Assembly (NCBI GenBank): GCA_020253445.1
Contig: JADCBP010000004.1
Location: forward strand, 1 to 64,000
Direction: 5' to 3'
Length of the DNA stretch: 64,000 nucleotides
From: Methylobacterium sp.
GTDB taxonomy: Bacteria > Pseudomonadota > Alphaproteobacteria > Rhizobiales > Beijerinckiaceae
The position numbers were made by a program, and so were the translations under genes. Shown piece after piece: positions 55,085 through 60,670 of this stretch (its first letter is position 1; each line of letters starts with the position of its first letter). The notes under the pieces were generated by a model, which had not been told where the DNA came from, did no database searches, and saw only the letters and a list, made by a program, of their open reading frames with translations.

Positions 55085-55165
55085 CCGGATGATCCCGATC
55101 TCTTCCGGAAATGGTTGCGGCGAAGCGCGACCGCGCATCCCGGCTTTTGCGAGGGGCAGGAACCC

Positions 55166-55846
55166 ATGACCGTCGCCACCCTTCGGCTTGCCGATGTCTG
55201 CCGCGCCTTCGGTTCGGGCGAGAACCAGATCCGCGTGCTCGATGGCGCGGATTTCATGCTCCGGCCCGGCGAGATGGTGGCGCTCGTCGGCCCTTCCGGG
55301 GCCGGCAAATCCACCCTGCTGCATATTGCGGGGCTGCTCGAACATGCCGACAAGGGCGAGGTCTTCATTGGCGAGACGGCAACCGCCAACCTTGATGACG
55401 AGGCCCGCACGCGCCTGCGTCGCCACGAAATCGGGTTCGTCTATCAGTTCCATCACCTCATGCCGGAATTCTCGGCCATCGAGAATGTGGTGATGCCCCA
55501 GCGCATTGCTGGCCTCGGCCCGGACGAGGCGGCCATGCGTGCCCGCGACGTTCTGGGCTTCCTCGGCCTCGGGCACCGCCTCGACCATCGCCCCGGCGAG
55601 CTTTCCGGCGGCGAGCAGCAGCGCGTGGCGATCGCGCGCGCGGTGGCAAACTCCCCCTCGCTGCTGCTGGCGGATGAGCCCACGGGCAATCTCGATCCGG
55701 TCACCGGCCAGCATGTCTTCGCGACGCTCCAGAGCCTCGTGAAGCAATCTGGCCTCGCGGCCCTGATTGCGACCCACAATCTCGAACTCGCGCGCCGCAT
55801 GGATCGCTGCGTGACGCTGAAGGAGGGGCGGGTCGTCGAGGCCTGA
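55166..55846 (+). CDS. lolD: Lipoprotein-releasing system ATP-binding protein
   Basis: 226 aa from the ATG at 55166. Walker [13 protein letters not shown], the Q-loop in [12 protein letters not shown] (the LolD-type signature), ABC signature [14 protein letters not shown], Walker [13 protein letters not shown] and the H-loop ATHN are all intact. It powers lipoprotein release with LolC. 81 bp separate it from lolC. Confidence 0.96.
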
Positions 55847-55880
55847 CCTCCAGGCACCGGCTTCCACCTGAAAATCACGC

Positions 55881-55909
55881 TTGACTCAAGCCTCGGAAGG
55901 TCTAGAACA
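55881..55909 (+). promoter_or_regulatory. Promoter upstream of the SOS-type small gene
   Basis: TTGACT (55881-55886), 17-bp spacer, AGAACA (55904-55909). The -10 hexamer overlaps the LexA box at 55905, the arrangement expected for an SOS-repressed promoter. Confidence 0.6.
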
Positions 55910-55919
55910 AAACACGAAC
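55905..55919 (+). promoter_or_regulatory. LexA (SOS) box, alphaproteobacterial type
   Basis: GAACAAAACACGAAC is a perfect GAAC-N7-GAAC direct repeat, the established LexA operator of Rhizobiales and Caulobacter (equivalently GTTC-N7-GTTC). The A-rich spacer AAAACAC resembles spacers in known boxes. It lies 29 bp before the ATG of the 34-codon gene and ~155 bp before dnaE. Confidence 0.8.
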
Positions 55920-55947
55920 ATTTTCATCCGGTGTTGGGAGGAGCCGC

Positions 55948-56052
55948 ATGTTGAGATCTGTGGAAGACTGGATTGAATGCGCGTCGCTGACCGTCTTTTT
56001 CGCTATGGTCGCGGTCGCCTATGGGGCGGTGGGAAACCTGCCGCTGGTATGA
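55948..56052 (+). CDS. 34-aa single-helix membrane peptide under LexA control (SidA-like layout)
   Basis: 34 aa with an excellent ribosome-binding site (GGGAGGAG at 55936-55943, 4 bp spacing). A short charged N-terminus (MLRSVEDWIECA) is followed by one hydrophobic helix (SLTVFFAMVAVAYGAVG) and ends NLPLV. It is preceded by a promoter with a perfect LexA box and ends 22 bp before dnaE. SOS-induced tiny membrane proteins that block division are known (Caulobacter SidA, ~29 aa, acts on FtsW). I infer a similar role from layout, size and topology; I cannot show sequence homology. Confidence 0.7.
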   Translation: MLRSVEDWIECASLTVFFAMVAVAYGAVGNLPLV

Positions 56053-56074
56053 CTTTCAACGAGTGGAGTGAAGG

Positions 56075-59533
<3,459 letters not shown>

Positions 59534-59586: not shown

Positions 59587-59677
59587 GCCCTTTCATTCCA
59601 CACGCAGGGTCTCGTTGAAACGAACCGGTGTCGCCACTGGCGGCTCGTCCTGCGGAGGCTCAACCGGAGAATACCCC

Positions 59678-60670
59678 ATGTCGGCACCTGATTTCTCGAT
59701 GCGTCAGCTTCTCGAAGCCGGCGCGCATTTCGGTCACCAGTCGCATCGCTGGAACCCGAAAATGGCTCCGTTCATTTTCGGCACGCGCAACAACATCCAT
59801 ATCATCGACCTCGCCCAGACCGTGCCGATGCTCTATCGAGCGCTGGAAGCTGTTTCGGACACCGTGGCACGTGGCGGTCGCGTGCTGATGGTCGGCACGA
59901 AGCGCCAGGCGCAGGACCCGATCGCGGCTGCGGCGAAGGCCTCGGCCCAGTATTACGTGAACTCGCGCTGGCTCGGCGGCACGCTGACCAACTGGAAGAC
60001 GATCTCGATCTCCATCCAGCGGCTGCGCAAGGTGGACGAGACCCTTGCCGGCGGCGCGGTCGGCCTCACGAAGAAAGAGCGCCTGATGCTCACCCGCGAG
60101 CAGGAGAAGCTCACCCGCGCGCTCGGCGGCATCAAGGACATGGGCGGCACGCCCGATCTGATCTTCGTGATCGACACGAACAAGGAACAGCTGGCCATCC
60201 AGGAGGCGAGGCGCCTGAACATCCCGGTTGTGGCGATCGTCGACACCAACTGCGATCCGGATGGCGTGACCTTCCCGGTTCCGGCGAATGACGATGCGGG
60301 CCGCGCGATCCAGCTCTATTGCGACCTCGTGAGCCGTGCGGCGATCGATGGCATCTCGCGCAGCCAGTCCTCGCTCGGCGTGGATGTCGGCGCTTCGGTC
60401 AACCCGATGGCGGAAGACCTGCCGGTTGCGGCTTCGTCCGAAGGCTTCCAGCGCCTCGCGGCGCCGCAGGGCGCGCCGGATGATCTCTCGAAGCTTGGTG
60501 GCGTGGGCCCGCAGCTTGCGACCAAGCTCAACGAATATGGCATCTTCCACTTCTGGCAGCTCGCAGCCATGTCGGAAGCCGATGTCGCGGCGCTCGATGC
60601 CGAACTCAAGCTGAACGGCCGCGCCGCGCGTGATGGCTGGCTCGACACGGCCCGCGCGCTCGCCGCTTAA
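59678..60670 (+). CDS. rpsB: 30S ribosomal protein S2 with C-terminal HhH extension
   Basis: 330 aa from the ATG at 59678 (CCGGAG upstream). The S2 core (1-~235) shows [34 protein letters not shown] and [15 protein letters not shown]. After a linker, residues ~268-330 form a helix-hairpin-helix domain ([41 protein letters not shown]) that is closely similar to the C-terminus of NuoE. S2 extensions of this kind are common in Rhizobiales; their role is not known to me. Confidence 0.97.

Follow-up and report, generated by a model that had tools for sequence, protein, structure and literature searches.

Several SOS-induced division inhibitors are known, among them YneA of Bacillus, SosA of Staphylococcus and SulA of E. 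coli, all of which are larger proteins than the peptide considered here, and TisB is an SOS-induced small membrane peptide with a type I toxin layout in which a regulatory RNA takes part and tisB has a long structured leader; TisB and DinQ are found at a different locus from the one described below. DinQ has likewise been reported as an SOS-induced small membrane peptide of type I toxin layout with a regulatory RNA (PMC3567139), and YneA has been reported to act on FtsW (PMC13396833). The closest described system is SidA of Caulobacter, a 29-aa inner-membrane protein reported to be induced through LexA, to interact with FtsW and FtsN and to have suppressor mutations in ftsW or ftsI (PMC4211646), and to which the filamentation of a lexA deletion in Caulobacter has been ascribed (PMC12700426). 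In the same bacterium, DidA is reported as a damage-induced single-pass division inhibitor, but it has 71 aa and is SOS-independent, being induced through DriD (PMC4211646). The sidA gene is given as CCNA_02004 (PMC10769358), adjoined by CCNA_02005, a nucleoside hydrolase gene (PMC3667746); lexA is given as CC1902 together with dnaE as CC1926 (PMC1839093), and elsewhere as CCNA_01979 (PMC11535069). The two lexA tags give an offset of 77 which, if constant over those 24 genes, would make dnaE CCNA_02003 and so place it beside sidA.

In this study, a locus of similar build was analysed in a window of 64,000 nucleotides (the whole stretch of DNA examined), with all its features on the forward strand. 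A -35 element TTGACT (55881..55886, read from the sequence) is followed after a 16-nt spacer by a -10 element TAGAAC (55903..55908, assigned by eye), which is overlapped by a putative LexA operator GAACAAAACACGAAC of the form GAAC-N7-GAAC (55905..55919, found by pattern scan). Spaced 28 nt from the operator, and behind a strong Shine-Dalgarno sequence GGAGGAG (55937..55943, read from the sequence), begins a SidA-type micropeptide gene MLRSVEDWIECASLTVFFAMVAVAYGAVGNLPLV of 34 aa (55948..56052, with the ATG at 55948 and the TGA at 56050-56052). The ATG of dnaE1 (56075..59533) follows 22 bp past the peptide stop, and no terminator was found between the two genes. The dnaE1 product was assigned as the replicative DNA polymerase III alpha subunit by NF004226 (PRK05673) at 1426.7 bits, above the cut-off of 1002, and scored 598.8 bits, under the cut-off of 939, with the error-prone polymerase model PRK05672. 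The upstream neighbour on the same strand, lolD (55115..55846), had TIGR02211 (LolD) as the best among 202 models, at 246 bits under a cut-off of 307.75. The promoter, operator, Shine-Dalgarno sequence and 34-codon gene that an earlier note on this DNA had claimed are all present at 55881-56052, and they are kept in 15 of 17 genus genomes.

Similar to SidA (NF033228), where a peptide of some 30 aa has a LexA box before it and dnaE1 directly after it, the window peptide gene lies directly upstream of dnaE1 and, at the sequence level, a LexA operator overlies its promoter in a genome that encodes LexA. The product is also of the expected size, about 30 aa with one transmembrane helix, as its 34 aa contain a single predicted hydrophobic helix: AlphaFold2, supplied with a 13-sequence genus alignment, modelled one helix over residues 2-29 (mean pLDDT 90.5, pTM 0.52), and the Kyte-Doolittle mean over 17 residues was 1.99. 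At the thresholds used, no Pfam, NCBIfam (E ≤ 1), PHROGs or PADLOC family was assigned to the window peptide, and PDB sequences gave no match at E ≤ 1; family libraries overlook it. When PHROGs was searched with 59 members of the family, the best result was phrog_1692, of unknown function, reached by 4 members with an E-value of 0.0052.

The operator pattern was then evaluated by count. GAAC-N7-GAAC occurred twice in the window vs. 1.55 times expected, and 97 times in the whole genome vs. 68 times for a reversed control; box counts alone were dropped as proof, since both numbers are near chance. The second exact match in the window (60602-60616) lies inside rpsB (Ribosomal_S2, 59615-60670) and is probably chance; rpsB itself encodes a C-terminal extension, to which a helix-hairpin-helix model (HHH_5, E 0.0079) matched weakly and below its cut-off. 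One LexA is encoded in the window's genome (Pfam), with two overlapping GAAC-N7-GAAC boxes before lexA, and the A-rich box spacer of the window operator is also found before own-genome frames resembling recA, ssb, imuA and rmuC/def. Among the 50 of 97 own-genome boxes whose flanks were examined, L001, L310, L021, L025, L315, L316 and L318 stand before recA-, ssb-, imuA-, rmuC/def-, DUF5131-like, mutY- and lexA-like frames, all named by eye from their translations, and lexA also by Pfam. A generic sigma-70 scan listed no promoter at the window peptide locus. With box counts near chance and the promoter scan empty, it is conservation that must decide whether the locus is anything but a random box ahead of a random frame, a view with which the lack of a strong excess of boxes in window or genome agrees.

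The peptide was present in 15 of the 17 genus genomes, the window's own included; the remaining two, G005 (83% complete) and G010 (78% complete), gave no dnaE match at E ≤ 1e-10 either. Two Rhabdaerophilum species and ten MAGs or isolates under broader names made up the 12 named peptide matches, and on the strength of these two species the genus was taken to be Rhabdaerophilum. In all 15 same-genus loci, TTGAC lies 24-26 nt ahead of a perfect box, a same-family frame of 33-34 aa begins 18-43 nt past the box, and dnaE lies downstream of the frame, as recognised by sequence pattern in 12 loci and by eye in three (L037, L041, L042). Over 30 shared codons the peptide gave a pN/pS of 0.47, with pN lower than pS in 104 of 105 pairs, whereas the +2 frame of the same DNA gave 1.55 (36 stop-free pairs); the +1 frame was not scorable. 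The peptide frame is under purifying selection. The earlier note had held that conservation of the box without the frame would leave dnaE as the sole target, and that conservation of neither would make the match accidental; when this was examined, frame and box were both conserved, which argues that the target is not dnaE alone and that the match is not chance. Given the conservation of box and frame in 15 of 15 genus loci, and the contrast with permuted boxes in the order survey below, the explanation by a random box and a random frame is of negligible probability.

Further, the occurrence of the peptide beyond the genus was assayed. The genus profile gave marginal matches in other genera, with a perfect box near the match in 11 of the 25 loci read, and a wider profile run over 199 genomes of the order gave 28 loci that were read, 20 of them with a perfect box near the match. 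To avoid bias, dnaE1 was then searched directly and the DNA upstream of it was read. The order sample comprised 140 Hyphomicrobiales genomes, with dnaE found in 138 and 134 upstream regions read; the four left out were G183, G219 and two genomes with dnaE close to the end of a contig (G162 and G242). The class sample comprised 106 genomes, 92 with dnaE, two of which belong to the window's own order; of the remaining 90, all but G398 and G332 were read, making 88. A hit was defined as a perfect box followed at no more than 60 nt by an ATG frame that codes for 24-48 aa and has a hydrophobic stretch with a 17-residue Kyte-Doolittle mean of at least 1.3. This threshold was set at 1.6, 1.5 and then 1.3, being lowered after G385 appeared at 1.36, and its lowering from 1.6 to 1.3 moves the order count from 65 to 66 of 134. 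For G245, the peptide chosen by the script was swapped for the family-like one behind the other box of that genome.

The earlier note had proposed a survey of lolD-dnaE intergenic regions in Rhizobiales for a box plus a small frame. In the present survey of dnaE upstream regions, a perfect box with a hydrophobic micropeptide was found in 66 of 134 Hyphomicrobiales genomes (28 of 51 families) and in 7 of 88 other Alphaproteobacteria, vs. 0 in the order and 0 in the other orders when G, A, A and C were permuted in the 11 remaining ways. The other orientation of the box gave 10 hits in the order, only where the GAAC form was also present, and 1 in the other orders. When one box mismatch was allowed, the order count was 69 of 134, and permuted boxes then also matched, in 14, 9 and 2 of 134. 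Any perfect coding-strand box within 1 kb upstream of dnaE was present in 72 of 134 order genomes, compared with 2 of 134 for a reversed box and 13 of 134 for a box on the other strand, both within 1 kb of dnaE. The operator consensus of the 66 survey boxes was GAACAAAANNNGAAC, which the window box fits, and the alignment of the 66 peptides had four conserved columns, namely D or E (61/66), A (48/66), F (58/66) and W (45/66).

A profile of these 66 peptides retrieved seven further peptides upstream of dnaE at 24.6-41.4 bits with no perfect box in place (G029, G247, G194, G246, G212, G214 and G221), four of which have a one-mismatch box, and two weak ones, also upstream of dnaE, at 9-11 bits. 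In any form, the peptide was found in 82 of 134 order genomes (29 of 51 families), or 84 counting the two weak ones; 50 of the 134 genomes, and 22 of the 51 families, gave none near dnaE or by profile. Outside the order, the order profile gave 29.4 bits for G331, 19.5 for G325, 15.1 for G326, 14.8 for G403 and 14.1 for G385, and low scores of 11.4 for G412, 10.3 for G363 and 5.2 for G379, vs. 10.9 for the best of 1320 shuffles; among the seven box-defined peptides outside the order, G363 and G379 are therefore no better than shuffles and G412 barely so. A search of 385 class genomes with profile A3 gave 12 matches at E ≤ 0.02, of which three were order peptides already known; nine more, situated in frames of 75-1150 aa, were regarded as chance matches with their loci left unread.

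The relationship to SidA itself was evaluated with the curated model NF033228 (div_inhib_SidA), which scored the G385 peptide of the class sample at 20.5 bits against a cut-off of 35. Over 385 class genomes, this model gave one match above the cut-off, in G675, which belongs to the same family, f115, as G385; over 60 f115 genomes it gave 44 matches at E ≤ 0.001, 37 of them above the cut-off, and among 14 named control genomes it matched at E ≤ 0.001 only in Caulobacter vibrioides. On this match pattern, with Caulobacter vibrioides the sole control match, f115 was taken to be Caulobacteraceae. In G675, a LexA box lies 40 nt ahead of the start of a 29-aa SidA, and the dnaE FVHL motif begins 69 nt past the SidA stop. 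In the 30 SidA loci that were read from the 44 matching f115 genomes, dnaE was present in all 30. Three loci cut by contig ends (L441, L449 and L455) were not counted for distances, boxes or profile scores, and in the 27 uncut loci the FVHL motif of dnaE starts 46-153 nt past the sidA stop, with a perfect box within 200 nt in 21. A search for a motif of nucleoside hydrolase, whose gene neighbours Caulobacter sidA, gave nothing in the class and order loci.

The Hyphomicrobiales-only profile recognised all 27 of these SidA sequences at 16.8-29.0 bits, vs. at most 11.1 bits for 1350 shuffles. Applied to three SidA-type sequences, the order profile gave 19.6 bits for G675 and 14.8 bits for G385, each above all of its 1000 shuffles, and 10.1 bits for G598, below its best shuffle of 13.4. 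In the reverse direction, a profile of the three SidA-type sequences left real and shuffled peptides unseparated at the top (12.5 vs. 14.4 bits), and a profile of the 27 SidA sequences scored 16 of the 66 order peptides above the 99th percentile of shuffles. The window peptide itself received 0.1 bits from the profile of 27, no better than shuffles, and NF033228, an equivalog that asks for more than 35 bits, gave no match at E ≤ 0.5 in the window's genome, so that the link to SidA runs through intermediates. A family profile built without the genus gave the window peptide 10.7 bits, vs. 10.5 bits for the best of 1300 shuffles, and gave its two nearest relatives 7.5 and 3.2 bits and the other ten genus peptides 15.2-27.0 bits; the window peptide is an outlier even inside its genus. 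In hhalign, the genus alignment matched the SidA alignment with 82.6% probability (E 9.6e-6), for a single pair with no database search.

Many members share with SidA the core [RKE]-[DE]-x-x-A-L-x-[SA]-[LV]-x-x-F. The window peptide differs from SidA in its 34 aa, in a V-E-D near the N-terminus and in an NLPLV tail, and neither the SidA model nor, directly, a SidA profile picks it up. It therefore stands outside the NF033228 equivalog, and it is named here a SidA-type peptide at the SidA locus. Locus, operator and profile support the SidA reading, and common descent with SidA is suggested by the shared place, operator and architecture and by the chain of intermediates, rather than by a direct match. 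The suggestion of the earlier note that the peptide may be an undescribed Rhizobiales counterpart of SidA gains support from the locus and from an order profile that recognises true SidA, with the link again made by intermediates.

For the window locus we infer LexA binding, induction, membrane insertion, a divisome target and co-transcription. In undamaged cells, LexA would sit on GAACAAAACACGAAC across the -10 element and keep the promoter closed, while upon DNA damage RecA filaments would bring about LexA cleavage and the promoter would open. Translation of the 34-aa peptide would then start at a strong ribosome site behind a short leader, and the peptide would be placed in the inner membrane as one helix. 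There, like SidA, it may keep FtsW, FtsI and FtsN of the late divisome inactive, so that septation would await repair. A transcript common to the peptide gene and dnaE1 is likely in the genus because dnaE1 lies 22 bp downstream and no terminator was found, and by this transcript the polymerase III alpha subunit would probably also be raised; basal dnaE expression would come by read-through from lolD, or from an unseen promoter. The size, the one predicted helix and the SOS operator would also fit an SOS peptide of the TisB/DinQ type, by which the membrane would be depolarised and the cell slowed with no inhibition of the divisome. However, the 28 nt from box to ATG together with the strong Shine-Dalgarno sequence leave no room for a long structured leader, the folding of leader plus peptide gene is ordinary (z -0.62), Rfam gave no match at E ≤ 1 over 55700-56300 on both strands, and locus and profile point to SidA, so that a depolarising peptide of this type is unlikely here. 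The window peptide is rather read as its genus's version of SidA, a LexA-repressed divisome inhibitor, with dnaE1 probably raised on the same transcript, and we put the probability of this reading at about 0.75.

On the wider scale, we incline, by a little, to the view that sidA-dnaE1 is an ancestral alphaproteobacterial SOS unit and that in much of Hyphomicrobiales the SOS division inhibitor still missing is a fast-evolving SidA, whose curated model so far sees only Caulobacteraceae. If this is true, one LexA-controlled promoter would arrest division and raise the replicative polymerase at once, and the recurrent arrangement would tie division arrest to replicative polymerase supply; little of SidA would then be kept except the place and operator of the gene and a few residues of the peptide. 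Within a literature search that left most subscription papers outside its scope, no paper was found that names an SOS division inhibitor of Hyphomicrobiales. No account of the peptide outside Caulobacter was found either, and the founding SidA paper and the comparative LexA paper of 2004 may remark on a wider conservation. As far as seen, the kind of system is already known and its reach is new. The survey provides a candidate gene for an SOS division inhibitor at fixed coordinates in many genomes, and the contact residues of a minimal divisome inhibitor could be drawn from the alignment of 59 diverse family members, each some 32 aa long.

The distribution of the peptide away from dnaE was also assayed. 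In the 58 genomes without a peptide upstream of dnaE, profile matches at E ≤ 1e-3 were obtained in eight, and six of these (L330-L335) have a perfect box within 60 nt; L330 and L332 are still within 3 kb of dnaE, while L331 and L333-L335 lie elsewhere. L337 is a peptide match without a box, and in L336 (G223) a longer form points away from dnaE and has two boxes on the side of its own start. L054 has tandem perfect boxes and a peptide away from dnaE. The box usually relocates together with the peptide. These loci bear on the possibility that the operator serves dnaE alone, with the small frame a passenger or a leader (uORF) that tunes dnaE translation, as the position of dnaE 22 bp downstream with no terminator found between would allow. 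However, peptide and box are found together apart from dnaE in L054, L331 and L333-L335, and the longer form in L220/L336 points away from dnaE and has the boxes to itself, indicating that the LexA site is not for dnaE alone. In addition, purifying selection acts on the frame, which can be recognised throughout the order even though its stop lies anywhere from 17 to 605 nt ahead of the FVHL codon of dnaE, and the leader with its gene folds unremarkably. An operator for dnaE alone is thus quite improbable, and dnaE is a frequent companion of the boxed peptide. The coupling to the polymerase gene claimed by the earlier note stands as gene order with no terminator found, rather than as co-transcription, and does not extend to some lineages, in which the peptide gene lies elsewhere.

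Several variants of the arrangement were observed among the loci read. In family f11 (L169/G034, L240/G187 and L220/L336/G223), the peptide motif forms the C-terminus of a longer LexA-boxed ORF (about 93-114 aa), behind an uncharacterised part, and the three long variants gave nothing above a cut-off when compared with Pfam. In family f24 (L333, L334 and L335), two overlapping perfect boxes and a third with one mismatch stand before the relocated peptide. In genus g32 (L063, L068, L069 and L072), two degenerate boxes, one of them like GAAC-N7-GAAT, stand before the peptide, and dnaE is far from the peptide in the three genomes where dnaE was located.
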